A DNA stretch of 64,000 nucleotides from the NCBI GenBank assembly GCA_030272155.1, contig CP126205.1, positions 3,026,501 through 3,090,500 of the forward strand, written 5' to 3'. Position 1 is the stretch's first letter, and the number at the start of each line of letters is the position of its first letter. The notes below the pieces were generated by a model that was not told where the DNA came from, did not search any database, and saw only the letters and a list, made by a program, of their open reading frames with translations. This DNA comes from Tetradesmus obliquus. Its lineage: Eukaryota; Chlorophyta; Chlorophyceae; Sphaeropleales; Scenedesmaceae. Below, piece by piece: positions 1-55,300 of the stretch. A program made the translations under genes and the position numbers.

Positions 1-1285
1 AGCGCAGCACACCAGATCACCAGGATACTAGTATCAGAAGTACTTCTGTTCAAACTTGAACTCACCTGTAGCTTGTTGTGGCTTGCAGTCAGCCGAGTCA
101 AGCTGCTCATGCCAGACCAAGCAGCAGGCAGCTGGCCGCTGAAGTTGTTGGATGAAACATCCAACACCAGCAGCTGAGAAAGACCGCCAAGCACAGCTGG
201 CAGATCGCCCTGCAGGCGGTTCCTGCTGACATCCAAGACCTGCACGGCAGCAACACAAATCAGATAACATACTATGAATGGTTTGGCAGAGGCCGCCAAG
301 TGCAGCGGGCAGCTCGCCCTGCAGGCGGTTCCTGCTGACATCCAAGACCTGCACACCAGCAGCAACACAACATTGGCAGCATCCTGTGGCCAGCTTGAGT
401 CGAGGCTGCTGCTGGCTCTAGCAGAGGAGTGCAGACACCTGATTTTGCACATCAGTGTGATGGACTGGCGCTGGCAAACTTGCATGTGTGAAGTAAAGTT
501 GTGCAGTCCATCTCACCTGTAAGCTCGACAGTGCCGCCAAACCACCAGGTAGCGGCCCCTGCAGCCCAAACCCTGACACATTCACAGCCACCACTGCCAT
601 CCTGTCCTCACTGCACACCACTCCAGGCCAGGGGCGGCCAGGGATGCAGGGGCTGGCCCCTGTCCAGTTTGAAAGTGTGCTGTTGCTGTCTGTGAGCTGT
701 GCTTTCCAGGCTAGGAGTGCAGCAGAAGCAGCGAGGGCTGGGAGGCAGGTTGAGGCCTCGCTGGGCTTGCAGGAAGGCGGGGCAGTGAGCGGTGCAAGAG
801 AGCCGCAAGCCTTGCCTGCAAGCAGAACAGCCATGAGGGGGAAGTTACATGTGGGTCCTAGTGGCAAGGGCTGGCAGGCATGTGGATGCCTCGCTGGGCT
901 TGCATGAAGGCGGGGCAGACAGAGATGCCAGGTTCCCGCACGCCTTGCCTGCAATCAGGATGCACAGCCCCGAAAGGTGTCGTGAAAACAGCAAAGCACA
1001 GTTGATCATGAAGTAGCAGAGAATGTGCCCAGGAGCGAAGCAGAAGCAGCAAGTGCTGGGAGGCAGGTGGCGGCCTCGCTGGGCTTGCAGGATGGCGGTG
1101 CAGTGAGCCGTGTGAGGGAATTACACGCCTTGCCTGCAAGCGGAAATAAATATGTGTGCAGCCCCATAAAGTGCAGGTATGTATGTATGTCGCAATTGTT
1201 GAATATGTAACACAGCAGGCGGAGGCTTCGCTTGGCTTGCAGAAAGAAGGTGCAGTGAGCGCTGCAAGAGAGCCGCACGCCTTGC
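1..1285 (-). CDS. LRR ectodomain module F (3' partial at window edge)
   Basis: Plant-type leucine-rich-repeat ectodomain, read on the minus strand and cut by the left window edge. The first exon opens with GKAC after a CTGCAG acceptor near 825 and runs into an N-terminal LRR cap (ALLAWKAQL, then a C-x12-C region ending PGVVCSEDR) and a first repeat (LQGPLPGGLAALSSLQ) with a donor near 523. Below it, two near-identical exons (about 285-350 and 175-245) encode VLDVSRNRLQGELPAALGGL, and the second continues into another repeat ending at a GTGAG donor near 64. The GKAC exon start occurs four times (upper ends near 1,285, 1,132, 948 and 825), but only the copy at 525-825 carries the whole cap. It probably continues the same polypeptide as module E through a phase-1 intron. 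No kinase or membrane segment is visible. The LRR assignment is firm; exon use is inferred. Confidence 0.7.
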
Positions 1286-1484
1286 CTGCAAGCACATTTA
1301 ATGAGAACAATGATTGTTGCAGGCCCACACACTTTGAAGCACGCAACCGCTACTTCTGTAACACAGCAACTGTGCTATCCACAGGTATTATATGATATCA
1401 GGCAACAACACAGCCATCACAATCAACTGCAGGTGCCAAGCATGCAGCCCTGACATCCCGCTCTTTCAGCTGTCTCCCTTACCC

Positions 1485-2280
1485 AAGTGGTTCCAAATGT
1501 AGCATTGACCAGGCTGCAAGGCATGCTAGCATCCAGCTGCCCACACAAGCCTGCTGATCCATAAGCATGCATACTTTTTTTGCGATGGTAGGAGGTGTGA
1601 AGCCGCATGAGGTATCCTCATCGTCACACACACACCCCTCCCTTAACTTACGCGGGTGGCGAGTTTTAACACACCACGCGTAGCTCATTCATTCATTCAC
1701 TTTTCTGCCCGCTCTTCTGGCTATCTTGCTCACCTACGTTGGTGCCAAATGTAGCATTGACCAGGCTGCAAGGCATGCTAGCATCCAGCTGCCCACACAA
1801 GCCTGCTGATCCATAAGCATGCATTCTTTTCTGCCTGCTCTTCTGGCTATCTTGCTCACCTAGGTTGGTGCCAAATGTAGCATTGCCCAGGCTACAAGGC
1901 ATGCTAGTATCCAGCTGTCCACACAAGCCTGCTGATCCATAAGCATGCATACTTTTCTGCCCGCTCTTCTGGCTTTCACTCACCTAAATTGGTACCAAAA
2001 GTAGCGTTGACCAGGCTGCAAGGCATGCCAGCATCCAGCTGCCCACATAAACCTGCTGATCCATACGCCACCAAGCAGTTGAAATTCGGCCCCTGGCGTG
2101 ACATTCAGCCAGCACAAGGCAACGGCAGCTGCCAAGCATGCATGCTTTACTGCCTGTTCTTCCGGCTGTATAGCTCACCTAGGTTGGTGCCAACTGTAGC
2201 GTTGACCAGGCTGCAAGGCATGCTAGCGTCCAGCTGGCCACACAAGCCTGCTGATCCATACGCCACCAGGCAATTGAAAT
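1485..2280 (-). repeat. Five tandem copies of an LRR C-terminal cap exon
   Basis: The exon encoding AGLCGQLDASMPCSLVNAT, with its splice donor and part of the intron (reads AAGCATGCATACTTTTCTGCC on the plus strand), occurs about five times, near 2,185-2,275, 1,985-2,070, 1,862-1,950, 1,738-1,830 and 1,490-1,570. Spacing is roughly 120-200 bp, with a longer gap before the last. Four copies keep TNLG or TNVG plus GTGAG. The copy near 1,490 reads TTWVRE with GTAAG. Divergence between copies is low, which suggests recent local duplication. Confidence 0.8.
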
Positions 2281-4354
2281 TAGGCCCCTGCCGTGCCATC
2301 CATCCGGCATCAAAGCTGCCGCTGATGTTGGTGTTGGCGATGTGCAGCGCTTGCAAGCTGGTTGGGAGTTGCATGCTGCTGGCGTTGCCAGATAGGCCTG
2401 GGTTGTCACTGAGGATGAGGGTCCTGAGGGAGGCAGTGCCGTTTGACCAGACTGCTCACAACGACAAGAAAGCAAGAGAACAGAGGTGTAACACATCATT
2501 GACGGCAGAAGTGTGCCTGAGCAATTGTAAAAGGGAAGTCATCATGCTATGTATACGCCAAGGCGTGCCAAGCAAGCTTGCAGCAGTGCACGCCTCAGCA
2601 GCTGCAGATTGTTATAACGTGTTCTGATGGCACATTTTGACGTGCAAAAGAATGTCTTCCGTTGAACGTTACCTGCAGGAATGCTGCCGCTGAGCATGTT
2701 TTGTGCCAGGTTGATGTACTGCAGCTGCAGGTATGAACCTGCTGCTGGGTCCAGCCATGCAGGCGGCAGCCAGCCTGCAAGCTTGTTCTGTGCCAGATCA
2801 AGGAACTGCAGGCTGCTGGTGCCCCATCCTGCAGATAAGCAAGAAAACACAGACATGTTTGCACATAAAGCAGCGCAGCCATGCTATATTCCCGTACAAC
2901 TATTGCCAAACACGGAGAGGTAGCAGGGCGCTGTACACTTTATCCTGTGTACACCAAACCAGTCTGCATCCTGCAGACGACTCCTTGCATGGGCAAGAAC
3001 AGAACAAGCTGCTGACCAGCCATTGCCTGCTGTGCAGCTGAAAGGCAACAAGCAATGCAGCTGCACCGTCAGCATACACTTCCATCACATATGTCATTGC
3101 ACAACGAGAGGTCACTGGCGAGAAATTGGCGCAGCAGATGATGCACTGGACCAACTCATGCCTCTCACCTCCAGGCAGCGTGCCATTCAATGCATTGCCC
3201 CGCAGCACCAGCACCTTCACCGTCTTGGCATAGTTTGAAAAGTAGTCGCTCCCTGGTACCTCGCTCAGCTGGTTGTAGCTCACATCAACCGTATCTAACA
3301 CAGGCAGCCAAGCAAAGCTCTGAGGCAGGCCTCCACTAAAGCTGTTGTGCTGCAGCAGCAGCTGCTGCAGGAAAGGTAGGCTTTGCCAGCTGGGTAGTGG
3401 ATCGGAGAGGCCGCAGGAGGTGCATAGAAGGGTTTGGAGGCGGCTCATGCATTGCACACCAGCACTGCATTGGCCCCATTCCATTGGTAGGCCACCCTAC
3501 ACAGCAGCACACAGCGGAACACAAGTGGTGTCATATCACTGGCTTCTGGGTTGTCCGGGGATAGTTATGTGCCATTCGCTTCTGCAAGCACCTGGCACTT
3601 TGCTTGCATCTGTAAAAAGATATTGCATTGAGCTTTGAGTTGCTGCAAGTATACGAGCACGCCATAGTTATTAGAGTGGCGCAACAACTCACCGCAAAGG
3701 TGTTGAAGCTCAGGTCAAGCTTCTGCAGCTCGCCCAGCCCCCTCACCTTAGCAGGCAGCGGCCCCATCAAAAACGCTAAAACATTTCGCCCTGAACCCCA
3801 ACTGTAACAACTCACCGCAAACATGTTGAAGCTCAGGTCAAGCTTTTGCAGCTCCGTTAGCCCCCGCATCTCAGCAGGCAGCGGCCCAGTCAGTATGTTG
3901 CTGCTCAGATTCAACTCCCTCAAGCCTGCCAGTGTCCCATTGGACCCAAAAGCCCCAGGAATCGTCCCAGACAGCTTGTTGCGCGACAGATCGAGCGCTT
4001 TGAGGCTCCGCAGTAGCGCAAACTCCTGCGGCAAGTTTCCTGCAAGACCCATCTCAGGCCAGCGCAGCTCTGCGACATAACCTTCGGGGCTGCAGCTAAC
4101 CCAAGGCCAGCCAGGAGAGCCACAAGGCATTGCATATGGACCATCCCATGATGCAAGGAATGCAGGATGGCCTAATGCTGCTTTGATGGCCCGGAGTGTG
4201 TCCCTGTCAGCTGTGTTGTTGGGCTGCTGGAAAGGAGAGGGCTGTGGGGTGTAAGGGGAGGCTTGGGTGGTGGTGTTGGAGAGGGTCTGCGGTGTGCAGT
4301 TGGCTGGCTGCTGGCGGTCAGTTAGGGGTGGGCCAAAGTTGGTGCAGTTGTATC
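2180..4354 (-). CDS. LRR ectodomain module E
   Basis: Minus-strand LRR module. It opens with GYNC at a TTGCAG acceptor at 4,354, followed by a Thr/Pro/Ser-rich linker (QASPYTPQPSPFQQPNN) and an N-terminal LRR cap (DRDTLRAIKAALGHP, then GSPGWPWVSCSPEG). Three or more 24-residue plant repeats follow at 3,810-4,080 (LKALDLSRNKLSGTIPGAFG, LRELNLSSNILTGPLPAEM, LQKLDLSFNMFAV). More repeats lie at 3,690-3,780, 3,170-3,480, 2,680-2,850 and 2,280-2,420. The last exon carries the cap AGLCGQLDASMPCSLVNAT and ends TNLG at a phase-1 GTGAGC donor (2,180). The exon LQKLDLSFN.FAV is present twice (3,700 and 3,830), and the last cap exon has four more copies further down. Probably secreted or cell-surface, judging from the family; no signal peptide is seen here because the module is likely internal to a longer protein. 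Confidence 0.75.
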
Positions 4355-10902: not shown

Positions 10903-10937
<35 letters not shown>

Positions 10938-31476: not shown

Positions 31477-31514
<38 letters not shown>

Positions 31515-31735: not shown

Positions 31736-31778
<43 letters not shown>

Positions 31779-36172: not shown

Positions 36173-36310
36173 GAGCAGAGAGGCGTGTGTGGTGGTGTAC
36201 TCAAGGTACTTAGTGATTTGACTTGAAGCGCTCTGCAGTACTGGCAGTGTGCAGCTGCACACCGTTGCCTGTGCATGCCGCAGACCACCGTGCTGGTGAC
36301 CACGGAGGCA
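36150..36310 (+). repeat. Two copies of exon end CCGCAGACCACC.TGCTGGTGA
   Basis: The exon end MPQTT(M/V)LV with its donor-like GTGA occurs near 36,152-36,174 and 36,278-36,300 in the ubiquitin-like gene. Confidence 0.7.
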
Positions 36311-36319
36311 CTTGCAGCG

Positions 36320-37815: not shown

Positions 37816-38037
37816 ATGGCAGCATTGCACACTAGGACGCCCGCTCATGCAGATAGAGTGCTTGGCAAGAGCTGGGCAAGGCCTGGCAGCACTCGTACGC
37901 AGCGTGTAAGGCCTTTTAATGCCGCTGCAAACAGGATTTCTCTTCAGGTGCGGCAGGCGAGTCAAGGACAAGTAGTAGCATGTGCCACGTCTGCACATAC
38001 TATTCCAGCTCTGTCAGCTAAAGCGGTCCGGCGTTGA
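37816..38037 (+). CDS. Possible first exon encoding a chloroplast transit peptide
   Basis: The ATG at 37,816 follows a leader with no upstream ATG nearby. The peptide MAALHTRTPAHADRVLGK...ARPGSTRTQRVRPFNAAANR is rich in Ala, Arg, Ser and Thr, lacks acidic residues over most of its length, and ends in SQGQVVACATSA, close to the V-x-A cleavage motif of green-algal transit peptides. It stops at 38,035-38,037 if unspliced; a GTGCGG donor inside (about 37,947) would be an alternative end. It may be the first exon of the gene whose main coding part starts at 38,357. The join has not been established. Confidence 0.45.
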   Translation: MAALHTRTPAHADRVLGKSWARPGSTRTQRVRPFNAAANRISLQVRQASQGQVVACATSAHTIPALSAKAVRR

Positions 38038-38356
38038 CATAAACATAGATCAGAGCTTTTTGCAGTTGATTCTGATGGCAGTTGGGCATAGTGTGCCTCG
38101 GGAACAGAGTGCCATACCCTGGAGCGCGCCCCAAGCAATTCTGCAGCTATCAGGGGATTACCGCAGTCCGTGGCTCCGATTGAAATATATATATATATTA
38201 ATGCGGTTTATGTTTTTTAACAGCGCAGCTGATTTGCGAGGCGCTGACCGCGCCTTCATGACCCTGGCACTCCCCTTACTGCTGAAACTGGCAGGACCAC
38301 CTTCACGCAGATCCTAACCACCGCAGCTGCTGCAAACGTTTTACATTGCCTGCAGG

Positions 38357-39857: not shown

Positions 39858-40165
39858 GCGCAGCAGCAGTGAGGGCAGCAGGGGCCTGTTATGCTGGGTG
39901 GCTGTAAAGTATTAGGAAGCAGCTGTGCGTTGGAATGTGGGCAGTGCATCGGCCTGGCTCTTCCTGAAAGGGCAGCTTGCAGAGACGATGCAGCAGGGAG
40001 GGCTGCAGAGGATGCGGCAGCTGGCGCTGGCAGTGGTGGCGGCTGCCGTGACTGTGCTGCAGGTCGGGCAGCAGCAGCAGCAGCAGTGAGCGCAGTGAGG
40101 CCAGCAGCAGATGTATGTGTAGCGCACTGGGTGGATGCAAAGTATTAGGAAGCAGGTGTGCGTTG
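39705..40165 (+). repeat. Duplicated 3'-terminal exon plus 3' UTR
   Basis: The coding end from GSASAWLFLQGQLAETMQQG to the stop, plus the following AAAGTATTAGGAAGCAG stretch, recurs with a period of 229 bp (39,711 and 39,940). The copy keeps the frame (GSASAWLFLKGQLAETMQQG) and a stop after polyQ. Both coding sequence and untranslated region were copied, so the source was genomic DNA and not a spliced exon. Confidence 0.9.
39903..39907 (+). terminator. TGTAA polyadenylation signal
   Basis: TGTAA 46 bases after the stop at 39,857 and before the duplicated terminal exon. The copy of this position near 40,135 reads GGATGCAAAG, so the signal is lost there. Confidence 0.55.
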
Positions 40166-43100
40166 GAGTGGTGGCTCATTATCGTATTGATCAGCATGGT
40201 CATACCGAGGAATGCAATCCGGCTGGGGCCTGGTGTTGCTAGTAATGCATGATTGGTACTTCACTGCACAGTTTGTGTATGGAAGGGGCTGGGCATCGCA
40301 GGCGGGTGGTGTCTCTGGTGCCTCTTGTATCTGGCCTTTGGCGGTTATACAATACACATCAGATGCCGCAGTGTGTTGGGTCTGTGCAGGGTGCTGGGCG
40401 GGTGCATGTGCATACGATCAGGCGCCTGGGTGTTCATTCGGGGATCAGCTGCGTCGTATCAGGCTGTGTTGCCCATGTTTGGTGGCCAATCAAACTGGCA
40501 CACACGAGCCAGAGGTTTTGTAGTATTAGGGTTCAGTTCAGGGCATGTGCTCTGCTGTTGGTGGTTTAGCCGCGTGGCTCATATGTGCATACACCACTGC
40601 CGTCCTTTCCCTGGTTCCTGGCGCTGTCTTTTCTGTGCGCATGCGGCGAGGTTTTGGGTGGGCGTGGCTGTGTTCAGGTGCTTGGTTGCTGTTCAGAAGC
40701 ATGTGTGCATCATGCGTCTGCTTTGATTCTGCGTGTGTTGAGAGGGTGGGGCTGGGTGCACCGGGCGGGTGGGTGGGGGCAGCAGCAGTGGCAGCCAATC
40801 GCGCACATTGCAACTGCGTAGAAAAAAAGCATGCGAGGAGCTGGGCTGTGCATTGCTGGGTGTTGGCTGCTGCTGCTGCTCTTGTTGCGGTACAGTTGGC
40901 GCGTATTAGGTTCAGGTGGTATCGCCGCATAGCTGTGGTTAGGTCATGATTCTGGCATGCTGTCATTGCTCTTGCGAGTGTGATGCTCTTGCGAGAGTTT
41001 GCTGTGCCTTCTGGCACGCTGTGAACAGGAAATCTGCAGGAGTTGACCTGTTGTTGACCTAAAGTCCTGGTCTGGGGGCTGCTGTGTGAGAGAGAGGGAG
41101 AGCTCTGTGTGGACTGGGGTCTACTGCAGTGTGCTGACTTGCTTGGCGCTGATGCGCATAAGGGGTGTGTTGCCTTTGCTTGGGCTTGAAGTAGACATAC
41201 ACGCCACTTATATGTATGCGCATACATATGTATGCATGCATCATGTGTGTTGTCATGTGATGTATGTATGTACTCGGGGGGCCTGTTCCCGCCTGCAGGA
41301 CAGGGTACAGACCGTGTATGGCGCTGACCGGGTGTGATAGGGCGGGTTGGGAGAATTGGAGGTGACCAGAGGACATGCTTCAAAGCAGCGATGGCTATGC
41401 TGAACCGCAGCATGTGACGAGTGCAAAAGAGCGGCTGCCACAGAACAGCCGTGGCCGGCGACGCACTGCACAGCAATGTGTGTACAGCAAGAGTTTGGAG
41501 CCTGGACAGCAGCACCATATATACGCATCATATATATGCTCCGCATCACAACCAGCGCAATTTTGCTTGGCGCCGGCTGCCCAATTCACGGCATGCCGGC
41601 GCCAAATCCTGCGCACTCCTGCTGACTGGACACTCTTGTATCTGGCGACCTCTGTGGTGCCTGTAGTGCCCCTCTGTGCTTTGCTGCAGCCTACTTTGTG
41701 CTGTGTTGCGGCACCCACTTTGTACTGCGCAGCAGCACTCGTCACTGTGCTTTGCTTGACCCTGCTGACCTGACCACCTTATACCCAAAAACCCTAAAAA
41801 GGCCAGCTTTGGCAGCAACTTGCGCGCCCGACCTGCTTTTGATTATGGGAGACCCACTTGGTTGACTGCTAGCACTCTTTGATGGCTTTTGTAGCCCCCT
41901 TGCTGACTTTAAATAGCCACCTTGTTGACTGCAATGCGTGTTTGGTGACTTGGATTTGGCACAGGCATGTTTGAGAGTTGAGCGCATGCTCAGCAACCGA
42001 CCTTGCTGGGTTTTAACTTGAGGGGAGAGAGGTTTAGGGTTCGCGCGATGGTGGCGTGGTTTTGGGTGCAGGCTTGAGACCCGTGTTGATACCTGTGATA
42101 GGCGCAGTATTTTTGGTAGTATGGCTGGTATTGGGCATCAAATTGTGCGGGGTTGTGGCTGTAGTCGCGCTTTTGCAGACGGTGCCAGCGCAACAGCACA
42201 GGCTTCTGTGTGTAGCACCTTCCAGTGCTGACAAAGATTGCAGCGGCTTTGGTCGCTCTCTTTGCTGCTGGTTGTGCATGCAGTGGTACGGCTGGCATCA
42301 GAAGGCAAGACAACAGAATGCTGCACCAGGCTGTATAGTATGTTGTGCAGTCTGTCATGCTTCTGTGCTATTCACAGTGCCTGTAGCTGGTTGCTGGTAG
42401 TGCTGTTGTGATGTAGCGCGACGATTGTGATTAGCCCTGTACCATATGGCAGGTGAGCAGCTGATTCGGTGCTGCTGTGACAGTGCTGGCAGTTCTAGTA
42501 GCTGGCAAGTGCTCTGCTGGACGATTGCAACACACCAGCAGTAGCACACATTGGGCATTGAACAGCCAGTCAGTCAACGCCATGCTACACTTGGCCAGAC
42601 TGGTTTGGACCCTTGTCGAGTTGACTTTGACTGTGGTCAACTGTGGTTTGACCACCAGCCTAAATGGGTTCCTTGCGTACAAGGTGGTGCTTGCAGGAGT
42701 GTGACCACCTGCTGGCTGGAAATCGTTATCATTTGTGTGCACCTGCGGCAGCAATTGATTCATTGTTGCATGATCACAGCAACAGACGGCATACCTATTA
42801 TGCGTGTTATGTGTGCCAGGAACCGAGCAGTGTGAGCTGACTTCGCGCACCTGCAGGTGTTGTTTGGTGTATGTAGGACTCGTGCTGGCAACCCTCTTCA
42901 GGTCTCTGCCAGGCAGTGCCTGTTGAACATGCATGCACGGGGCAGCAGGTCAGCAATGGTTTTGGTGGTTGTATGTTTCTGTGCGAGGATGGAACGCATC
43001 CCTTGAGTGAAGGTAACAGCTGCCATGTCCTGCAAACTTGTTCCTTGTCAGTCCTGCCGTTCTCTTACTTCAGTGACAGTGCCATGCTGTGCCTGATGAT

Positions 43101-43270: not shown

Positions 43271-43274
43271 TGTC

Positions 43275-43990
43275 ACCATGGTCGGCGCCAGCCCCCCCCC
43301 CGAAGCAGGGTCCAGGGCCGGGGATAGGACCCAAGCGATGTCGATTTCTTGCAGCTGCCTGAATGAACTAGAACAAGAAGCTAGGATTGCAAAGACGAAA
43401 TGCTAATGATTATTTATTGCGCTTTTAATCAGAAATCGAGGTGGTCCAAAGGGGTCAAATCCGCCGTTGACTGCGATATGCTCACATATATTTGCGATTG
43501 TGGTCTCATAAGGAAATGAACCAGAACGAGACCTGAAATCATAGTTACAAAATATGACGGTTGAACGCTTTACATCAAAAAATAGGCAATCGAGGTGGTC
43601 CTAAGCGGTCGAATCGGCTGACGAGTGCCGGTACCGGAAAGTCTGCTCAGGGAAAGGGCCCGCAGCACCCAAAAAAGGCTCAAATGTCTTCCAATATACT
43701 GTATCAATGATTATACGGTGTTTTGGCGGCGAGCAGTTTCGTCACTGCCCCGAGTGCAGCCCGAGTGCACCCCACTGTGACACCCCCGACACCACTGCAG
43801 TGCTGGTGACTGAGGTCAAATTGCCCAAACCGGTTGGACACGAACGCGTCCCAGCAGCCTCACAATTGTTCATGAAGTAATATTGAACATAATAAATGCG
43901 ACTGGAGACATCGCTTGGCTCGTTCGTGTCAGCCCAGTACTGGGGTCCAGGGTGCTTTGGGGGGGGGGGGGGGGGGGGGGTCGGCGCTTG
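43275..43990. repeat. Diverged inverted repeat around an A/T-rich core
   Basis: The plus-strand stretch at about 43,275-43,345 (GGCGCCAGCC, poly-C, GAAGCA, ... CCAAGCGATGTC) resembles the reverse complement of about 43,905-43,990 (GCGCCGACC, poly-C, AAAGCA, ... CCAAGCGATGTC). The core is more A/T-rich and holds a direct repeat, AATCGAGGTGGTCC, at about 43,435 and 43,588. It could be a worn miniature inverted-repeat element. Terminal duplication of a target site was not found. Confidence 0.35.
43959..43980 (+). repeat. Poly-G tract (22 G)
   Basis: 22 consecutive G (C on the other strand) near the left end of duplication copy 1. It is a potential G-quadruplex and a place where base-calling and replication slip. 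The copy-2 counterpart at 55,460-55,484 has 25 G. Confidence 0.95.
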
Positions 43991-44200
43991 CTCCGCAGCA
44001 CCCGACAGTTTGCATCATGGTAGTGGCACCTGTACGGTACACCACACCAACCCGGATCGCTTCAACGTACATGTGCGCTCTTGCATTTTTTAAGCACATT
44101 GCAGTAGCGCCTTGTGCGACCTGTAACAGTCATGCTGTTGCAGTTTCACTAAACGCAGTTGTAGCTGAACTCCCATCTGTTCATCACCAGCACACCCCCT

Positions 44201-44205
44201 TTACA
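44201..44205 (-). terminator. TGTAA polyadenylation signal (minus strand)
   Basis: TTACA on the plus strand, about 230 bases past the stop of the terminal exon of the PHD-exon gene, copy 1. The equivalent site in copy 2 is 55,705-55,709. Confidence 0.4.
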
Positions 44206-44432
44206 ACTTGAAAGGAAAGCAAACAGACGGGCAAGCCATGCTGCTAAGGGCCAACTGTCAGCATCATGGCAGCGGACACCGCATTGCATACACACATTGC
44301 CAGCACCTGCCTGCCAGCTGGACTTCCAGCTGACGCTGATGCCGCTATCCCCGACCCATAGGCCGCAGCATGTCATGCAGGGTCCCAGCGCGTCAGCAGC
44401 TGTATAGAGAGTGTGGTCACCTGCGGGTGCAA

Positions 44433-47400
44433 TTATGCTGCCCGCACCCAATGGAACCTGAGTGCGTGGTCCTGCCCAGACACGGCAACCACGCGGCCCA
44501 CACAACCCTCTGGAGGGACAACAGACCTGTAGCTGAGGCTCCCCAGCAGCTGGTGCTCTGGACAATCAGGAATCCTTAGTTTTGTGTTGTCACTCTTGTG
44601 GAACACCACTTGCCTCACAAACTGAACGTCTGTCCTGAACACGTCATTGTTCATGCGGCCAATCACCACCTCTACTTTGACCACATCATGCAGGTCACGA
44701 ATCTCCAGTGGCTCCAAGTTGCTGAGCGCTGCTTCAGTTTGGTGGCGCAGTCGCTCCGAGAGCAAGGGTAGCCCAAGACCACACACGCCGATTATTGGGA
44801 GGCCGCTACGCACCATGTATGCAGTTGCCTTATTCAAGTACAGGTTCGGGCTGAAAGACGCCCGAGACACCCCGTGCATGTGGCTGATGGCGTAACCCCC
44901 TACAGCCCGTCTGCCCTCGCCACCACCCCAACATGGCACAATGCACTGCAGCTTCAGTGGCTCCCCAGCACGCATGTCCACACGCGCCAGGGGCCCAGAC
45001 GCCCGACTGCCAAACCATTCACTCGGCACTTCGGCTGCCAGCTGCCCCAGTTCTGCCAGCAGCTCCTGCTCCAGCTTGTCGAGTGCCTGCAGCAGGTCGT
45101 GGTGCAGCTCCTTGCCTGTCTTCCACAGGTCTGCGTCAACGCCGGCCTGCAGTGCCTGGTTTGCGCTGCGTGGGTAACAGATAAACGCGCCAAGCGCTGC
45201 GCAGCTCTGCGGCTTGCTGAAAGCGTCGCCAACCTGCATCCTGACAGACGTCAACTCCTTTTGCAGGCCACGCACGACCTCGTTGCGCTGCAGCCCATGG
45301 GGGCGCACCTCGGCTGTCAGCATCTGCATGCATGACCAGCAGCAGATGCATCTTGGTTCGCATAACGCAGTGAATATGCAGGCGCAGTGCCTGTGTGTCT
45401 CTATGTTGGCAGCACCACATTCACCACATGCGTAGTTGGAGGGGGCTCAGGTCAAACTTTGCGGCCAGCCCAGCCACTGCACACACCACCGTGAGGCGTG
45501 CAGCTGGTGCGAGTACAGGCGCATGCGGTGTTCGAGTTATGCAACAACTCATAGCATGGATGTGCTGCAACATAGTGTACATTGGTTGTGGTGTATCAGC
45601 ACATCATGCTGCAGGCCCATGTGGCAGCAAGCCCAGCGTCGGTGTTGAAACAGAGACATTATAATTGTATGCATGCAAGCAGGCTAGCAAACCGCTGTGC
45701 TGAGATAGCCAACTTAACACAAGCGACTGGGATCGCCAGACAAACCTTCGTTAAACCGCAAGGGTGGTGCTGTTTTGCGTCTGCAACAGTCCACATCGCC
45801 CCTCTCCCTCTCTCTCTGCATGCATTGTGCTGGATGCCTTGCAGGAGTATTCACTCACCTGCTCCAAGTACTTCAGCTTTTGTGCCGCATGCCACAAGCG
45901 CTTGCTCGCTTCATCAACTGCTCCGCTCGGCACTCCTGCCGCCACGTCGCTGGCGTGGCTGGCTGCTGCAGTGTGCGAGGATGCCTTGCCTGCACTGGGC
46001 CAAATATACCCCAGCAGCCACTGGAAATCTGACAGCTGGGATTTGTTGTACCTGCAGTGGAGGAAGTTCACAGCGTTCAGGAGCTTGAAGCAAGAGTGCA
46101 TGGGTGCTTGCAAGCAGCTACCGCACAATACAATCAGTGCCACCAACAGCGACAGCATGCGGCAGTGGTACAGTACCAGCAACACCAGCAGCAGCAGCAG
46201 CAGCAGCTACAACATGCCTCCCATCAACAGAGCCACACTGCGTGCCAATGACCGTCTGAGCAGTTCTCTGCAGCAATTGTGCAGGCTCCTTAAGCAGCTA
46301 CAGCGCATTGTTTGTTGCTGCTGCTGTCGGCCCAGGGGCAGCACAGCAATGTGCAGTCTAGAGATGTCTGAAAGTTTGCACAATGTGCTTACTGATCAAG
46401 TGCGCTGTGGTAGTCTTCCAGTTCTGTGTACTTGCCCAGCAGTGCTTCCAGCGGCTCCCCTGACTGTGTGTTCATAGCCTGTACAGCTTGCTGGAGCTGC
46501 TCAAGGGTCCTGGCAGACCTGTTGGCTGCCAGGACACTTGCTGTGGCGCAGCCAGCGGATGCATCAGCACCTGCTCCAGCTGTAGGAAGCTGGCCACCTG
46601 GCCAGCCTCGGCCACACAGTGACATGCGGCAGCTGTACTCCCTCTGGTGAGTCTGCATGGCACTGCCGAATGCAGAAGCCACTGCAGGGCCATTGAATCC
46701 CAGGCCACCCAGGCCGGCGTTGATGCTGGCACTGGCAGAGTCGGAGCGCTCTGCAGAGCTGAACTCAAGGGTGCAGATGCCTGCAAAGCAACCTGCCTTG
46801 TTGTAGCCTTTGATGAACCTGCCAAGGTGAAGGTGCAGCACAGGCAACAGGAAGGTGGTTGTGTCATGCACGCGTTGCTGCCGAAGATAATGTCCTGGCC
46901 AAGGTACTGGAGCATCACAGGAAAGCAGCCTACAAACCAGGACCCTGCACCTGCTGCTTCTGAGTGGCACCACTCACCAGCAGCCGCAAGGCTTTACATG
47001 CTGCATGCTTGTGCACACCACGTGGGTGTACATGTGCCTGTAGTGCACCAGGCTCAACTCTGCTAGGCAGTAGGCAACTTGGTGCTGCTTGAGCACTTGT
47101 TAAGGCTGATGTCGTGTACTGAGTAATTGCCTCATCATGCTGGTGAGCAGGCCAACCCCCTTCCCGCTACCTCCCTTCTTACCCAGGTCCCCCCCCTTAC
47201 CCCCCCCCCCCACCCCAAGAAGCTGCATAAGGTAACAAAGGCCCAGGCAGTGGCGTTTCGAGCAATGCTGTGACGTGACACATGCATTACTGAAATTAGT
47301 GTCTCATTTTCAGCTGGTCGTGGCGAACCTGGGCCGTGCTTGGCGTCACTTGCATGCTACAGATGGACGTACAAGTTCGGGCCGTGCAGTTGAGATGCAC

Positions 47401-49377
47401 ACATACTTCGCATGTCACGCAAGCTCTCTTAGCTCATAACACGGTGCACACGCACAGAGACAGCCCTGTATCCAGCACAGCTAGCAAACCCTGGTGAAAC
47501 CCACCACCATTGGTTTCTTACCTGTCGCCAAACAAACTTTGGAAAGCGGCTGGTCCCTCTGTAGCCAGCTTGCTGCGGGCGAGCGCGTTCAGTCTTGGCT
47601 CGGGCCCACGAAAGAAGCCTGCGGTCTGGTGCTTGGCCATCACCACTGCATGCACCGAGCGCCTGCTGATGGAAAGCTTCTGCGCCAGCTCTGAAGAAGT
47701 GTCCATCTTGATGTCGCTGGCAGAAAGCCCGGCGAAGCCGTACGCTTCCAGTGCAGTGACGTAGGAATCTGTGCTGTCTACCAGGTACCAGCTGCTCTGC
47801 ACTTGGGCTTGACCAGCAGCAGCACCAGTCACCGGAGCACCCGAAAAATGCACTGCTGGCGCTTTGAGTTCGCTGCTGATGATGTCGTACCCCAGACCCA
47901 ACTCGTAATCAGGCTGCCACCGCATCATGTTCTTATACAAGAGGGTATACTCTTGAACCAATACCAAGATCCAAACTGTTGATATTTGACCCAAGTAGTG
48001 CGCGTTGCGTAGATCTATGCACCACATGCCAATCATGCGTGACCCAGCCAGCCCTAGAAGCCTGGCAGGGTTTTCACGATGGTCGCAAGTGCATATGCTT
48101 ATGGCGGCCTATCCCCCTGGGAGTCGCTGGTACAGTGTACACCAGCGCCAAGAAGCTTTTGAAGGAAGCACTGGGCGTCACGTCCCCAGCCCTGGACACA
48201 CTCCTGCGCAACCTGCATCTCCAAGCCATTCGATCACTCACCAATGTGATAAGATACAGACGCATCAAGATGGGCACTCGTCTGGGCAAGCAATGGCGCC
48301 AACAAAACCCAGCAGCAGGTGCCACCTGTGTAACACAGCGAAACAGCGGCAGCGGCAGCAGCAGCAGCAATGCAGCTAAGAACGGCCAGAAGAGGCAAGG
48401 GCCCAGACTACCCAACTTCAAGCGCAAAAAACGCAAGAAAAAGAAGGGAGGATAGTTACCTCCAATGCATATGGCTGGGGCTGGGGGGACTTTGGGGAAA
48501 GGGGTGGCAGGGGTGCTGGATGTGGTGGGCAGCAGCAGCAGCAGCGGTGATGGGTTGATGCCTGCTAGCATGGCCTCAATGATGGGACGGCTCTACATTG
48601 TGGTCATTTGGTATCATTTGATCTTGTGTTTAGCGGAAGCAGCGAGAGGAGCGTGCTGGAACCACGACAGCACAGCAGGGGGCAGTGGAGACGCCTGCTG
48701 CTCTGAAGACCCAGAGAACTCGCAGCTTTTTAAGGAGGAAGTCATATGGTTTTAGATGGATTGCTGATGGCAGAGCTTGTCGTAGGGGAAGGGCGGGAGT
48801 CCCGTGACACTGTTACACGGTGTTAAGGCCCTGTCCTTTGCCCTCCGTTAATTCCGCTCCCTGCAAAGAGGGCGTAGACACTTTCAACTTTCAACTTTCA
48901 ACTTATGGCGGCCATAACAATCGTTACAAACGCCTGTGAGTGTATCAGCAACCCGCTCAAACCTAGTCGTGGGAGTGAAGGGTCGGAAGGGCTTGCATCA
49001 GCAGTGGAACCTGTTGTGATCCCCTGCAGGCCCTGCTGCGTCACCAGCCAGTCCATTACTGTCAGCTGACGCTTCAGAGTCCTGTTACTGTGCTGGCACC
49101 GGCTTCCTTGCCCACAGGCGTGTGCTTGCAGTGCCACTGCGGGACGGGGGCGGCCCCTGACTGGTGACAGCTGTGGCGCGCTGCGGTCACGAGTAGTCGG
49201 GTATGTTTGCAGCTGTAGTACAACAGTGGGCTGCTGAGTGACGAGCATGTATGCCTGCCACGCTCTGGCGTCTACAGCTGCTGCAACCGTGTTGTCAGTT
49301 CATCAATGTCTAGTTTGGTGGGCTTGCCAGCGCGCTCCGCAGCCAGCAACGCAGGCCACCTGCACTGCTTTGCTCTA

Positions 49378-49413
<36 letters not shown>

Positions 49414-49513
49414 TCGCAGCTGCTTTGAAGTTGCTGTGCCTCAACCTCATCCTGCTGGCTTGCACTGGAGATACATGGCCCTGGCTGTTGCCTGCTGCTG
49501 CAAGCTTGGCTTG

Positions 49514-49569
<56 letters not shown>

Positions 49570-50245
49570 AGCTTCTTCTTCACTGCAGGAGGTACTGTTG
49601 CAACCAAGTCCTTCATCGCCAGCTGTGCCGCAGACGGACCAGCCACCCATGCCTCTGTGTTGCTGCTCAGAACAGCTGCTGGCATGCCGAAGCCCGTGTA
49701 CCTGCTGCTGACAAGACGGTGCGTGCACACCTCTGTACCTGGCTGCTGATATAGAAGCGCCACTGGCTTCATGACCTCCCAGTGAAGACGCTTCAGCTGC
49801 TGGTGTGAGCTGCAACACTGTACATGCGCACGCTGTCCCTGACAGGTGCCTTGGGGCATAGCGCTTTGATGTTCCTGAAAGCACCACGGTCTGCCAGTGT
49901 GATGCCACCCATGCTGATGACGCTGTTGCATAACAGAGCCTGGCTTAGGTGTGGCTGTTTTTTCATCTGCATACATTGGCTGTGGCGCTTCAACCACTAC
50001 AACGCAGCCTGGCTGCAGAAGTGCCAGCTGCTTGCACCCCTCGCTGCAGTAGTAACACCAGCTGGCACGCCAGGCAGACCCAAGCAGTGTGTGTGGTTGC
50101 CTGTGTTGCATGTGCTGCACAGCAGCATGTGGTGTGCAGCATCTGTTTGCTTGCACACACTGCAGAAGGGATCATTGTCGTCAAAACCAGCTGCAGCTGC
50201 CATGCTGTTGCCTATATATCTGAGAGAGGTTACTGGTGGACGCTG
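44433..50245 (-). CDS. Unrecognised multi-exon gene with a PHD-finger exon (copy 1)
   Basis: Minus-strand gene in pieces. The 5'-most recognisable exon (about 50,035-50,210) encodes DPFCSVCKQTDAAHHMLLCS and TCNTGNHTHCLGLPGVP, the first zinc pairs and His of a PHD finger. The expected last ligands (WCYYCSEGCKQL) follow at once but in another frame. Later coding-like exons are: 49,793-49,990 (NSVISMGGITLADRGAFRNI); 49,272-49,600 (polyS and QLAMKDLVATVPPAVKKKL); 47,518-48,036 (SDIKMDTSSELAQKLSISRR); 46,389-46,800 (LEQLQQAVQAMNTQSGEPLE); and 45,866-46,052 (KSQLSDFQWLLGYIWPSAGK). The terminal exon (44,433-45,323) contains QALDKLEQELLAELGQLAAE and ELAPLEIRDLHDV-like text and stops with TAA. TGTAA lies at 44,201-44,205. 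PHD fingers usually read histone H3 tails; no other domain was recognised. It may be a chromatin protein or an element-borne gene. Confidence 0.5.
47145..47220 (+). repeat. C-rich tract
   Basis: Runs of C (CCCCCCCCTTACCCCCCCCCCCCACCCC) in copy 1. The copy-2 counterpart near 58,653-58,727 has one interruption moved (CCCCCCCCACCCCACCCC). Confidence 0.9.
48480..48905 (+). mobile_element. Possible retrotransposon 3' end with ACTTTCA tail (copy 1)
   Basis: A 3'-UTR-like stretch ends in three tandem CAACTTT units (about 48,884-48,904), like the short repeated tails of non-LTR elements. Immediately upstream, a plus-strand open stretch (47,979-48,455) ends in a very basic run (FKRKKRKKKKGG). It interrupts the exon order of the minus-strand gene, consistent with an insertion in an intron. 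No reverse-transcriptase or endonuclease motif was seen. The same sequence is at 59,988-60,413 in copy 2, so it predates the duplication. Confidence 0.35.
49503..49569. repeat. CTG microsatellite (copy 1)
   Basis: Pure CTG run. It reads as polyserine in the frame of the minus-strand gene and as Ala, Cys or Gln in others. The copy-2 run (61,014-61,080) is one unit longer. Confidence 0.9.
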
Positions 50246-50348
50246 CAGGTGGTTGTTGCAAGTCCACTGCAACACGCAAGGATCAGCAAGCAAGAAAATT
50301 TTCAATTATTATTGTGGGTACGTGTGATTCTTTTCCATTGGCTTGCCA

Positions 50349-50476
50349 GCAGGGCGCCGCAGGGTGCAACAGGGCGCCGCAGGGTGCAACAGGGCGCCGC
50401 AGGGTGCAGCAGGGCGCCGCAGGGTGCAACAGGGCGCCGCAGGGTGCAGCAGGGCGCCGCAGGGCGCCGCAGGACG
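50349..50476. repeat. 20-bp GC-rich minisatellite (copy 1)
   Basis: About six and a half units of CAGGGCGCCGCAGGGTGCAA, alternating with units ending GCAG. The unit length is not a multiple of three, so reading frames cycle through it. It lies upstream of the PHD exon on the minus strand and is probably intronic. The copy-2 counterpart is 61,860-61,987 with the same unit count. Confidence 0.9.
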
Positions 50477-50479
50477 CCA

Positions 50480-50988
50480 CCAGTGACTGGTTGCTTACAA
50501 TAATAGACCTGCTTGCACGTTTCAAGAGGTACCTTAATACTGGTGCCAACAGGCAGTCGGACTCTAAGGGTCCTCACTGACCCTGCGATGAGGCGGTTAC
50601 AAGCAGCTACGAAAGCAAGCGCAAACTAATTGTATACAAAGAAGTTACTGAGTGGGACTATCACACACTTTCACACGTACATGTGTTGCAAACTGGCAGC
50701 CTGGCGTCATGAGTCAACACTTCAGCGCCAAAACTCATGCCCTGCAGCAAAAGCTACGGCGTTCGGCGCATTTAGCGTGGATTGAGCACTTTCAGTCGTT
50801 TGCAAAAGTTCCGAGGCAAGATCACTTGGCGTCTGTGCATTGCTCAACGCTTGCTCAACTGGGGACGTCTCCTGTGATGCTGTTGTGATCTGCAATCTGG
50901 TATCACTGGGACTTTCGTCAGTCACCTATCGATAGTAAGCGGCTCTGCAAGCTCTGTTCGGACCGCGCAAGTAGGGCTTGCAGCGATT
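50480..50988. promoter_or_regulatory. Upstream region between PHD-exon gene and TMEM45 gene
   Basis: Between the minisatellite and the TMEM45 start. On the minus strand 50,722-50,925 is open and protein-like (TSPVEQALSNAQTPSDLASE) after a GATAG that could be an acceptor. It may be a 5' exon of the PHD-exon gene, but no initiator ATG is present. If so, the two genes are divergent and separated by very little DNA. Confidence 0.35.
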
Positions 50989-52198
50989 ATGGACGCACAC
51001 AGTCACGCTGGGCACGCACACGGGGCTTCTCACCCTGCTACGTCTATCAGCGAGCTACAACACCCTCCTCATGGCAGCTACGAGGGTCACGTGGTGCCAG
51101 GTACGAGCTGCTGCGCTTGCCAGCTTGCTGCTGCTGCTGCTACTGCCTCCAGAGTCCACACTGCTACGCCTGCTGCCTGCAACTCTCTACAAATGTAGCG
51201 CATTTGGCGGCGATTTTAACGTTTGTTGTTTGTTAGCATGAAGCCAGCTCTCTGTAGTCCAGCTCGTCTGCACGGCGCCAACAGCACCACCAGCAGCAGC
51301 TGCTGGATTGCTTTTCCCTTATGTTGCACAATCCTGCCTCAGGTTCCTCCAGGCGCATTCATGTGAACCCTATAAGTGCTGTGGTGTTTCCTGCAGGCGT
51401 CATGTTCATCATCTGGTCAACATACTGGATCTGGTCCGTGCTAGACATCCACCTACGCACTCGAGCAGCAGGCCTGCACACATACCTCCCCCTGCACACC
51501 AACTCCACCACCAGCAGCAGCAGCACCAAACAATCCGGCAGCAGAACCAGCAGCAGCCACTGCAGCAGCGGCCGCGGGGAGCCGTTTCGCTCCCGTGCTT
51601 GGTACCCCTGGCCTTACTGGCCTGCAAAGCCAATGGAGCCTATTTTCAAAGTGCTGTTCTGCCTGCTGGGGGTGTTTATCGAGCTGTATGTTGGCTTCCG
51701 GGGATGGCGGCCGCTGTACAAAGCTGATGGGCACTTTGCTGAGTTCCACGCAAACAACTGGCAGGTGAGGGGCGCTGTAGCAGCATTCTGGCGGCGGCAG
51801 CAGCAGCAGCATGCAGCGTTGTCGCTCATACACTTTGCTGAGTTCCATGAAAACAACTGGCAGGTGGGCGGCGCTGCAGCAGCATTCTGGCAACAGGATG
51901 CTGGGTGCTGCAGCAGCAGCAGCAGCAGCAGCAGACAGCAGACAGCACGTAGTAGTCTGAGCTATTCCTGTGCTGGCTCCGCACAGATACTTGATAGTGG
52001 AGAGGGGCAGTAGCACCATTTTGGCTGGCAGTGGATGAGACGCAGCAGCTGCAGCAACAGCAGCAGCAGCAGGTTAAAAAGCAGCAGTGGCAGCAGTGTA
52101 GTTGGAGAGTACGTCACAGCAGCAGCAGCAGCAGCGCAGTTGTGCATTCCATGTCAGTACGCTGTTAGGCAAGCATCCCCATCTCATTGCTGGTGTCG

Positions 52199-52238
<40 letters not shown>

Positions 52239-54643
52239 TTGCAGCATGCGCTGATGTACTCAAGCTTTGCTGTGAGTGGCGTGATCGACCTCATTGGATA
52301 CTTCACGCCTCTGCCGCCAGGCACTGAGCAGGTGGGAGGCAGTATACAGCAGCCAATCTGATCTGTGCTGTTGCTTTGTTTCTTTCAAGTCAAGGTTGTT
52401 TTCAAGCTTGCAATGAATATGGGCAACTCCGCTGCTGCCAGGCACTGAGCAGGTGAGCAGCAGTATACAGCAGTAACCTGCTTGACATGTTGCACGGCAG
52501 TGCATGTGCTGTGCCCCTGCCTGTGGCGCCATCACGTGCTGCGCCTGACGAGCTAAAGCAAGTTCGCAACACGACATGCGTTGCAACACCATCATGACCC
52601 TCCCTGCCTGTTTGTAACCATGTGCTGAAGTACCGATGGCTGTGGTCTGCTGTGTGACTGTGTGTTGCCCCAACAACAGCAATAACCAGTCCCTTGTTTG
52701 GTGTTTCCTGATTTGCCTGCAGTGCTTCCTGTCGCTGTCTTTTCTAGTGAAGACTCCTCATGGGCATGCACGCCAAGCCCTTCCTACCCTACCCAACAAC
52801 AACACAACACAACAACACAACCATGCATGTTTTCTGTGTTGCTCTGCCTGCAGGGCTTCCTGTCGCTTTCATTCCTTGTGGAGACGCTGCTCATGGGCAT
52901 GCACGCCAAGCCTAATGAGCTCGACCAGCTGGTGCACACGCTGCTGACCTGGATCATGATCGCCAGTCACAACCACGCTGCCTGTGTCTCTCGTCGCCTT
53001 CCTGCGTGCAGGGCTTCTTGTCCTCATAATATCTTAGTGGAGACTCTCCTCATGGGTATGCACGCCAAGCCCTTCCTTTCCCTTAACAATAACTGCCTGT
53101 CTTCTGTTTTCCTCTTCTGCCTGCAGGGGTTCCTGTCGCTGTCATTTCTGGTGGAGACCCTTCTGATGGGCATGCACGCCAAGCCTAATGAGCTCGACCA
53201 GCTGGTGCACACACTGCTGACCTGGATCATGGTTGCGTGCATCGTCATCAGCGCAGCTGAAATTGCTGCGCCTCAGAGCCTGCTGCTGGCGCTGCTGCGG
53301 GGCATGTTGGTGTTCTTCCAGGGGACGTGGTTCTGGCACGTTGGAGCAATCATGTTCAAAGGTGAGGGGATTGTGGTTTTGTAACTTTGTTGTCACTTTT
53401 GTTAGAAGCAGCAGTGCCTGGCAACCCCTGTTTTGTTGCTTTGTGGCGCTGCTGCGGGCCAAGCTGGTGTCCTTCCAGGGCAGCTGGTTCTGGCATGTGG
53501 GGGCAATCATGTTCAAGGGTGAGGGGTCACATGCAATGCGTTACTGTTGCGTTGCTGTATGTAGCTGGCAGCACTTCTCAGCAGGATCTAATATGCGCTT
53601 TATCGTGGGTGTGGAAATGTCACGTTGTCTGGACAGGCTTTAGAACGCTGGCGGTACGGTACGGCAGGCAAACCGCTCAGGGTGAATTGCCTGATACCTG
53701 GATGTCTGGCTCCCTCTTGCACTGTAACGGCCTAGTGCCTTAGGTCACGTGTTGGCACAATATGTATTTATCGTGTTCTCAGCCTATACTTGCTTCCATT
53801 GCCTGCCTGCCGCTTCACTGCAGACTCCATGGCCTGGGACATGAACGACATGGGCAGCGTGATGTTTGTGCCGGTGGTGTTCTGCCTGCACATGCTGCTC
53901 ATCTGCCTGGGCACATTCTCAGGTAAGCAGCGGTGTTAAGAGCAGTAACAACAGCACCAGGAAGCAGCGCTGCCAGCAACTGCTGTGTGACTATTGTTAT
54001 GTGTGTTCTGCCGCACATGCTGCTCATCTGCCTGGGCACCTTGTCAGGTTTGCTGCGTTACAACAGCACATGGGCGGTGATGTCAGCAGCGATTTCACCT
54101 ATGCATGCCTGTGCTTGCTGCTCATCTGCCTGGGCACCATATCAAGCCACCGCTGGGCCTGTGCATGCAACCTGCATGTACTGTACCAGCAAACACAGGT
54201 GCACCGCCAGCAGCTTATGTGTGTCGGCCCATGCATGTTCACGCATGCATGCTGCGCGTCCACACCGCGTAACTTGTACTCATCTATATGTTTGTGCGCT
54301 GCTGCTTTTTCTTCCTGCGCATCCGCCTGCAGCCTACCTGTTCATGCGCTGGCTATACGTGCGGCTAGGCATCAGCAGCAGTGCACACCTCACTGCGCAC
54401 CTCACTGGAAATCAGCTGGCAGCAGGCCCAGCAGGCAAAGCGTCACTGCTAGGCAGCCACCTCATAACCCATCATGATTCAGGCCCTGCAGCGCATGACC
54501 TGGCAGATTTGGATACACTGCTAGAAGGGCAGTTGGAGCTGACTGATATGTACGGCAGCAGCAGCAGCGGCGGCGGCGGCGTGGATGCGGCAGGCCATGG
54601 CAGGGATAGTGGTGTGAGGGGTAGCAAGCGCAGCCATGTGTGA
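50989..54643 (+). CDS. TMEM45 / DUF716 family membrane protein (copy 1)
   Basis: Multi-exon gene. ATG at 50,989; exon 1 (to 51,100) encodes a His-rich N-terminus (MDAHSHAGHAHGASHP) ending GHVVPG. It continues with 51,397-51,764 (VMFIIWSTYWIWSVLDIHLR; PIFKVLFCLLGVFIELYVGF), 52,245-52,331 (HALMYSSFAVSGVIDLIGYF), 53,127-53,361 (FLVETLLMGMHAKPNELDQL; ALLRGMLVFFQGTWFWHVGA), 53,824-53,922 (FVPVVFCLHMLLICLGTFS) and 54,333-54,643 (AYLFMRWLYVRLGI, then a hydrophilic tail and stop). The order H-A-L-M-Y, F-x-x-E-x-x-L-x-x-x-H and QGTWFWxxG is that of TMEM45/DUF716 proteins, which have about seven membrane helices. Their biochemical role is not settled. Several exons have tandem partial copies. Confidence 0.88.
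51725..51900 (+). repeat. Two copies of exon end HFAEFH.NNWQ
   Basis: The end of TMEM45 exon 2 (HFAEFHANNWQ, donor GTGAGG at 51,765) recurs at 51,828-51,865 as HFAEFHENNWQ with a GTGGG donor and a copied intron start (GCAGCATTCTGG). It is present in both segmental copies. Confidence 0.85.
52335..52475 (+). repeat. Partial copy of TMEM45 exon 3 end
   Basis: CTGCCAGGCACTGAGCAGGTG with AGCAGTATACAGCAG recurs about 115 bp after the exon-3 donor. It carries only the last few codons of the exon. Confidence 0.75.
52722..53245 (+). repeat. Four copies of exon GFLSLSFLVETLLMGMHAKP
   Basis: The parent exon starts at 53,127. Copies start after CTGCAG at about 52,723 (short), 52,854 (long, through NELDQLVHTLLTWIM) and 53,011 (altered). 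The copy at 52,854 is nearly identical to the parent over about 100 bases and still in frame, so it could be used in place of or beside it. Confidence 0.85.
53290..53530 (+). repeat. Two copies of exon end LLR..LV.FQG.WFWHVGAIMF
   Basis: The exon end with QGTWFWHVGAIMFK (donor at 53,362) recurs at about 53,447-53,520 as FQGSWFWHVGAIMFK with a GTGAGG donor. Both keep the frame and the QGxWFWHVG family motif. Confidence 0.85.
53870..54150 (+). repeat. Three copies of exon end FCLHMLLICLGTFS
   Basis: The parent ends at 53,922. Shorter copies lie at about 54,008-54,050 (LPHMLLICLGTLSG) and 54,113-54,148 (LLLICLGTIS). Confidence 0.8.
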
Positions 54644-54900
54644 CGTTGTGTCACTGGTTTGCATTTGCATCCTAGTGTCAAGGCCGTACAAATCGTTGCT
54701 GCTAGGCAGCCACCACGCAACCCATCATGATGCAGGCCCTGCAGCGCATGACCTGGCAGATCTTGATTCGCTGCTAGAAGGACAGCTGGAGCTGACAGAT
54801 ATGTATGGCAGCAGCAGCAGCAGCGGCGGTGGTGTGATGCATGCAGCAGGGCATGGCAGGGACAGCGGCGTGAGGGGTAGCAAGCGCAGCCATGTGTGAC
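54445..54900 (+). repeat. Duplicated 3'-terminal exon segment (TMEM45 gene)
   Basis: The coding end from LLGSHLITHHDSGPAAHDLA to SKRSHV stop (54,641-54,643) recurs with a period of about 251 bp as LLGSHHATHHDAGPAAHDLA to SKRSHV stop (54,897-54,899), including the post-stop CGTTGTxTCACTGGTTTGCAT. A further worn fragment (GGGCATGGCAGGGACAGC) follows at 54,957. Confidence 0.9.
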
Positions 54901-55300
54901 GTTGTATCACTGGTTTGCATCCTAGTTCAAGGTTGTGCAAATTGCTGATGCGACAGGGCATGGCAGGGACAGCAGCCTGCGTAGCAAGCGTATCAATGTG
55001 TGAGACGCAACGCCATGTCAACGTCATGTTGCAATTATTGTAGTGGGTGCATAAGGCTGCATGCAATCAGGCAAGCGTCCACACGTGGGGCTATGCAGCC
55101 TGGGGTCTTGTCAAGATGGGGCAGTTGATCGGCGTCTCTGTTCCTGGGGCTCGTGACTACGTGCTGCCACTTACAACTCTGCTGACACGAGGGTCGTGTG
55201 GCACTGGACACGACGTGTTATGTGACACGGGTCTGGGGCCATGCAGCCTGGGGTCGAGTTGGGGTAGCTGGGCAGCAAAACTAGTGGGAAGGGTCAGGAT
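54900..55300 (+). other. Downstream region of TMEM45 to duplication junction
   Basis: No gene seen. The pieces GGGGCTATGCAGCCTGGGGTC (55,086) and GGGGCCATGCAGCCTGGGGTC (55,236) form a diverged 150-bp direct repeat just before the junction at 55,300/55,301. Confidence 0.5.

Follow-up and report, generated by a model that had tools for sequence, protein, structure and literature searches.

Abundant local direct copies of exon ends in the introns of the green alga Tetradesmus obliquus and their probable origin in short duplications

Introduction

In other organisms, short duplications that arise by staggered-end fill-in and end joining at breaks with overhangs have been documented, as set out in part of the published account (PMC8355091). 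In the potato RdRp gene, a tandem duplication over an intron-exon boundary was found to have made a new intron, according to the relevant portion of that report (PMC4974935). Models of intron gain, exon duplication and exonisation rest on rare single cases. A compact genome with partial copies near about a third of its predicted exon 3' ends, ranging from identical to decayed, would permit direct measurement of duplication rate, breakpoints, splicing outcome and selection. Among the open-licence papers listed by literature searches, none described such exon-end copying in a green alga.

Here, a 64,000-nucleotide stretch of the Tetradesmus obliquus genome (the window) was analyzed together with a genome-wide sample of loci. 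A first-pass annotation of the window had described tandem copies of exon-plus-intron pieces in almost every gene.

Materials and methods

The window is part of contig 15 in an assembly of 17 contigs and 104,662,953 bases, with a GC content near 56%. The comparison set comprised 19 loci of 10 kb at fixed coordinates, taken at 1.0 Mb on each contig plus two at 3.0 Mb, covering all 17 contigs; locus L022, which adjoins the window, was kept apart from these 19. Window blocks are the five 10-kb pieces of positions 1-50,000. Copies were detected by self-BLAST with a single fixed search space throughout, so that counts are comparable. Gene models were obtained with a home-made HMM operating on the sequence only; splice sites are predicted, except in a few genes checked against solved homologues, and the gene finder itself may be attracted to copies. 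For the probe test, 45-nt probes were searched for a same-strand copy within 600 nt, leaving out L018; before filtering for low complexity and short flanks, the probes numbered 136 for exon 3' ends, 137 for exon 5' ends, 299 for exon middles and 711 for introns. Neutral spectra for the selection counts were derived from non-coding columns. Pairs within one array are not independent, and the selection counts are to be read as tendencies, not tests.

Results

Local direct copies across the genome

Self-BLAST of the whole window yielded 92 pairs, every one direct, and no pairs remained after block-shuffling of two window blocks and of two loci from the sample, which confirms that the tandem exon-piece copies described in the first-pass annotation are real. 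The five window blocks contained 73 direct and no inverted local pairs, with a base coverage, in order, of 18, 23, 48, 14 and 0% (mean 20.9%). The block at 40-50 kb showed no local pair by self-BLAST, and the statement that almost every gene is affected proved too wide. In the 19 sample loci, 161 direct local pairs were found versus 3 inverted ones; direct copies occurred in 15 of these loci and covered on average 16.1% of bases, or 13.7% without the satellite-like L018. The duplication pattern occurs genome-wide, beyond the window.

Copy identity spans about 69 to 100%, in agreement with the mixed divergence reported earlier. Tandem Repeats Finder units of at least 60 bp amounted to 4.4% of window positions 1-55,300 and, in the 19 loci, to 8.0%, or 5.3% when L018 is excluded, so that a tandem-repeat program overlooks most copies. 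Distances between copies peaked at 100-160 bp, with 15 between 60 and 100 bp and none below 60 bp. The latter absence is a limit of the method, since simulated units were recovered in 11/12 trials at 80 bp, in 6/12 at 60 bp and in none at 50 bp or less. Because only 64 of 248 pairs abut, while 184 are spaced by at least 20 nt, the class is referred to as local direct duplication and not as plain tandem arrays.

Other repeats were also observed in the sample. L018:1-3826 and L018:6649-10000 hold an extended array, the nearly identical units of which were modelled by the gene finder as a cysteine-rich repeat protein; the array adjoins a hAT-family transposase-like gene (Pfam Dimer_Tnp_hAT). At L019:640-10000, one long reading frame is present in three tandem copies and matches DDE_3 weakly, short of the curated cut-off.

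Arrays within the window

Copies in the places named in the first-pass annotation were recovered, with 250-bp units at 21,235-22,095 and arrays at 18.4-19.0, 19.9-21.0, 23.2-24.0, 29.3-32.8, 39.7-40.2 and 52.7-53.2 kb. The arrays of the window are as follows.

713-2309, minus strand: LRR gene (LRR by Pfam match of a piece of the model), arrays of exon-intron pieces, with 126-bp units at 1699-2065
12905-14554, minus strand: further arrays in the LRR gene model, with 122-, 110- and 168-bp spacings
18458-19031, plus strand: exon 3' end with donor, three copies spaced 222 and 251 bp apart, differences mostly synonymous
19161-19450, plus strand: acceptor and exon start, three copies
19870-20965, plus strand: exon start, about six copies of uneven length
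20964-22122, plus strand: exon 3' end, donor and intron, five copies; 250-bp units at 21235-22095 are 99% alike
22685-22953, plus strand: exon 3' end, a single extra copy downstream with a 2-nt frameshift
23226-23995, plus strand: exon piece with a donor at its end, four copies
28207-28724, minus strand: JmjC gene model, diverged pair 269 bp apart, near-neutral
29280-29607, minus strand: JmjC domain gene (Cupin_8/JmjC by Pfam), 73-nt exon piece with a copy downstream, 95.9% identity, introns unlike
30149-30595, minus strand: three copies at 120-bp spacing
31902-32846, minus strand: two arrays, at 31902-32352 and 32582-32846
39707-40170, plus strand: ubiquitin-like gene (ubiquitin family by Pfam), last exon in two adjacent copies, 229-bp unit, 11 synonymous differences and 1 nonsynonymous
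51732-51891, plus strand: DUF716 (TMEM45) gene, exon piece in two copies 99 bp apart
52714-53231, plus strand: DUF716 (TMEM45) gene (DUF716 by Pfam), one exon start in four copies, two short and decayed, two long
53287-53526, plus strand: exon 3' end, copy downstream at 157 bp
54436-54951, plus strand: last coding piece, two copies side by side with a unit of 253 bp

The 17-24 kb gene, labelled TFIIS earlier, gave no Pfam match at E 0.01. The gene models at 34709-40089 and 28257-34704, in opposite orientation, meet within 5 bp at 34,704/34,709, and the start of the ubiquitin-like gene may be incomplete, its Pfam match beginning at profile position 18. Furthermore, a near-identical tandem duplication with an 11.5-kb period joins 43800-52480 and 55301-64000, the second copy continuing into L022; over 43,800-52,480 the two copies are distinguished by 6 substitutions and, at short runs, by 6 length changes. 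A 20-bp GC-rich repeat (6.6 units) is present in both copies of this duplication, at 50347-50478 and 61858-61989.

The near-identical arrays, together with the 11.5-kb duplication, are what an assembly error or merged haplotypes might produce. Such an artefact is nonetheless highly improbable as a general account, given the continuous divergence down to about 70% and the unlike spacers, and the first-pass annotation was right that it fits the spread of divergence poorly; the near-identical arrays remain candidates for it. Merged haplotypes are further opposed by the DUF716 exon, which has no second version outside the 11.5-kb pair, and by the description of Sphaeropleales vegetative cells as basically haploid in part of a published account (PMC5966456). 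A diverged second haplotype was rejected as the donor of the copies on the same DUF716 evidence and on that of 21,300-22,100, of which no second version was found elsewhere in the assembly.

Excess and direction at exon ends

The first-pass annotation had proposed a whole-genome self-alignment to look for enrichment of copies at exon borders. Such enrichment was present among the pairs found here: 169 of 224 genic pairs spanned a predicted splice site, versus a shifted-control mean of 112.2 (sd 6.3, maximum 127). With exons and introns as short as these, chance alone would place about half of the pairs across a splice site. In the probe test on predicted exons, with L018 left out, a nearby copy was found for 38 of 110 probes at exon 3' ends and for 26 of 115 at exon 5' ends, compared with 33 of 220 in the middle of exons and 93 of 640 in introns. 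Against intron probes, the Fisher test gave 2e-6 for the 3' and 0.04 for the 5' ends, and inverted-strand matches, the control for the probe threshold, were seen for 9 of 1,085 probes.

The copies lie outward of the exon. Whole or internal cases (19) and terminal ones (7) were set aside; among the pairs in which exactly one member overlaps a predicted exon end, the copy of a 3' end lay downstream in 53 of 56 pairs and that of a 5' end upstream in 52 of 55. The coding fraction was 0.31 for copy bases compared with 0.42 for genic bases. Most inspected copies are exon ends without their own donor or their own acceptor, and some have both (e.g., 23,449-23,568).

The copies are not restricted to exon borders, as had been implied, since intron probes carry them too and 42 of the 248 pairs contain almost no predicted coding sequence. 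This intronic share is also what would be expected of ordinary green-algal minisatellites that reach exons by chance, and a high density of tandem repeats in green-algal introns and near intron-exon junctions has been reported for units of 1-50 bp, the range covered in the part of the study used here (PMC3887541). The units found here, however, are mostly 100-300 bp long and usually occur in two to four copies with spacers, and chance extension is already disfavoured by the exon-end excess and its direction. An origin of this kind is therefore very unlikely.

Seeding by CAG/CTG runs, suggested in the first-pass annotation, found no support: a copy boundary lay within 25 nt of such a run in 26 of 248 pairs, a figure that BLAST low-complexity masking may lower, versus 68.2 in the shifted control (range 50-85). 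In 15 kb added afterwards (L029 and L030), copies were found for 1 of 6 probes at 3' ends, 0 of 6 at 5' ends and 5 of 51 in introns. The lack of an exon-end excess there counts against the pattern on its face, yet with so few probes it neither supports nor refutes it. At L030:1591-1742, near-identical repeats (98.9%) with 58-bp spacing reach a predicted exon 3' end on its downstream side.

Flanks, spacers and copy boundaries

Past the copy boundary, identity falls to the random level. Among spaced pairs, a like right flank was found in 1 of 16 at 95-100% identity and 3 of 41 at 90-95%, and a like left flank in none of either class. In many copies the match is confined to the exon end, beside unlike introns, and this holds even where identity reaches 95-100%. 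Plain age was rejected as the cause of the unlike introns, since flanks were unlike across all identity classes.

These nearly identical exon ends beside unlike introns suggest copying or homogenisation confined to exon ends. Two routes can be envisaged: template switching tied to splice signals (CAG|GTG or TGCAG microhomology) or breaks linked to transcription or splicing; and gene conversion between exon copies once their introns had drifted apart. The positions of the boundaries point the same way, as 20 of the 75 spaced pairs that have a donor in common end no more than 9 nt past it, and in 66 of 138 spaced pairs a boundary falls no further than 12 nt from a predicted splice site, where the control gives a mean of 40 and a maximum of 56. 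Three spacers searched genome-wide, moreover, matched only within their own array, as would suit exon-end copying; on that search, spacers as copies of other introns or introners were rejected, none of the three being found elsewhere. Spacing, however, is not a feature of exons, as 35 of the 42 almost non-coding pairs are spaced as well. In addition, 37 of 119 neighbouring spaced pairs retain some spacer similarity to adjoining sequence, often displaced by about one unit; this displacement points to nested rounds of duplication. Template switching often inverts, whereas nearly all copies here are direct. Altogether, confinement to exon ends is unlikely, if the rival most worth keeping in mind. 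Its strongest form, in which duplication or copy correction aimed at exon ends would start and stop at splice signals, write the exon end and its consensus into the adjacent intron and leave usable spares, is slightly more doubtful still. If it were true, a sizeable part of exons (to judge by the 3' ends with copies) would have a spare end nearby, available for new introns, new acceptors or repeated exons.

Selection on the copies

In 126 pairs, one copy lies outside the gene model. These pairs show 478 synonymous and 370 nonsynonymous differences, where 669 nonsynonymous ones are expected for a neutral copy and 99 under constraint on both copies; 13 stops were observed versus 26 expected for a neutral copy. 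The implied copy omega was 0.52 overall, 0.71-0.80 in the sample loci and 0.29-0.39 in the window genes. The copies tend to near-neutrality in most sample genes and to partial constraint in the window genes. Of the 105 pairs with at least 4 synonymous differences, 22 looked strongly constrained, 27 near-neutral and the others intermediate. Among the constrained pairs are that of the 39.7-kb exon (11 to 1) and that of DUF716, whose two long copies differ by 8 synonymous and 0 nonsynonymous changes over 35 codons; two of the 22 repeat DUF716 pairs, which recur in L022. Exon-limited copies were considered as the constrained class and rejected: for sample-gene copies outside models, nonsynonymous differences versus the neutral expectation were 81 vs 99 when exon-limited and 150 vs 204 when extended into introns, with no clear difference. 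In adjacent arrays, divergence was alike at third codon positions and in introns (medians 0.165 and 0.155; 44 pairs), and gaps were common in introns and rare in coding columns.

The deficit of nonsynonymous differences and stops, together with the strongly constrained pairs, would be expected if many copies were real alternative or repeated exons under selection. The near-neutral pairs argue otherwise, as do copies in L007, L010, L012, L016 and L021, with an implied omega of 0.74-1.56 (small counts), and the missing donor or acceptor of most inspected copies. As a general account, functional exons are quite unlikely. Of the two fates offered in the first-pass annotation, decay as pseudo-exons fits most sample genes, and alternative exons may apply to some window genes in which both copies look constrained.

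Copies in conserved genes

Conserved genes indicate which copy belongs to the protein. The gene in L020 is SNU114 (best solved match 8xi2 chain C, E 5e-185). This match and that of plastocyanin (best solved match 2PLT/7ZQE) support a chlorophyte source; plastocyanin, which resembles that of Scenedesmus (Tetradesmus), was rejected as a marker of the species. Upstream of the P-loop exon of SNU114, the first 45 nt of that exon recur twice, in both cases with an acceptor; the 59-nt start of a later exon has two further upstream copies at 100% identity, and one exon 3' end has two further downstream copies. The solved homologue contains one of each P-loop segment, both query pieces aligning to the same chain residues, and a second P-loop should break the protein, which again speaks against the copies as functional exons. 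Similarly, in the glutamate-cysteine ligase gene of L007, an exon end is present six times and the homologue aligns to the first copy only. In these two genes the copies lie beside exons, within predicted introns, and the earlier statement that a single copy is joined to the rest of the exon holds. Copies also occur in the glutamate synthase small chain (L022) and in an old-yellow-enzyme-like gene (L013), and none were found in a MAP-kinase-like gene of L009, named from the look of its gene model alone. Gene models readily chain surplus copies into false-repeat proteins, including a doubled P-loop exon in SNU114. For gene predictors this is a warning that surplus copies enter models as false repeats.

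Discussion

The copies occur genome-wide, in direct orientation, in excess at exon ends and within the adjacent intron, and they decay near-neutrally in most sample genes. The best explanation, held with moderate confidence, is that short local direct duplications arise at a very high rate and that copies which cross an exon end are tolerated in the adjacent intron. Duplication events of at least about 60-300 bp would arise in the same orientation in introns and exons alike, most likely through fill-in and end joining when staggered breaks or nicks are repaired, or through replication slippage. A duplication wholly within an exon would usually harm the protein and be lost. One that crosses a splice site could survive, as the surplus exon end would land, donor or acceptor included, in the neighbouring intron, where it would presumably be left out of the mRNA and then decay as a pseudo-exon. 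The surplus exon piece would stay recognisable for longer than an intron copy because selection keeps the original exon constant.

Some observations count against this explanation. Young simple tandem copies should keep like flanks, yet the spaced pairs, 184 of 248, have unlike ones; 20 of the 75 donor-sharing spaced pairs end just past the donor; and the window copies, by their implied omega, look more constrained than pseudo-exons should be. Beside the unlike flanks stand the hints of nested duplication and the spacing of non-coding pairs, and because of these, duplication followed by selective filtering is kept as the best model, with copying or conversion directed at exon ends as its main rival.

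Mutually exclusive tandem exons are exon copies in tandem whose coding sequence is conserved. Such conservation is seen here too, in some genes, but most of the present copies are partial and lack one splice site. The turnover of algal intron sequence seen here is also a feature of introners, as treated in part of the literature on them (PMC9860276); unlike introners, the present copies form no dispersed family, the three spacers searched genome-wide being unique. Chlamydomonas and Volvox resemble Tetradesmus obliquus in having repeats that are abundant in introns and in excess near intron-exon junctions, although that study, in the part drawn on here, examined units of 1-50 bp only and did not have exon content as its topic (PMC3887541). 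In potato RdRp, as in the copies described here, the duplicated stretch crosses an acceptor and adds both exon and intron sequence; the potato example, as the consulted portion presents it, is a single case that yielded a new intron, whereas hundreds of intron-lodged copies are present in this sample (PMC4974935). The small tandem duplications of break repair, on the part of the account used here, are likewise short, direct, local and independent of starting repeats; those duplications are adjacent and occur at induced breaks, while many of the copies in Tetradesmus obliquus are spaced by unlike sequence and occur at very high density (PMC8355091).
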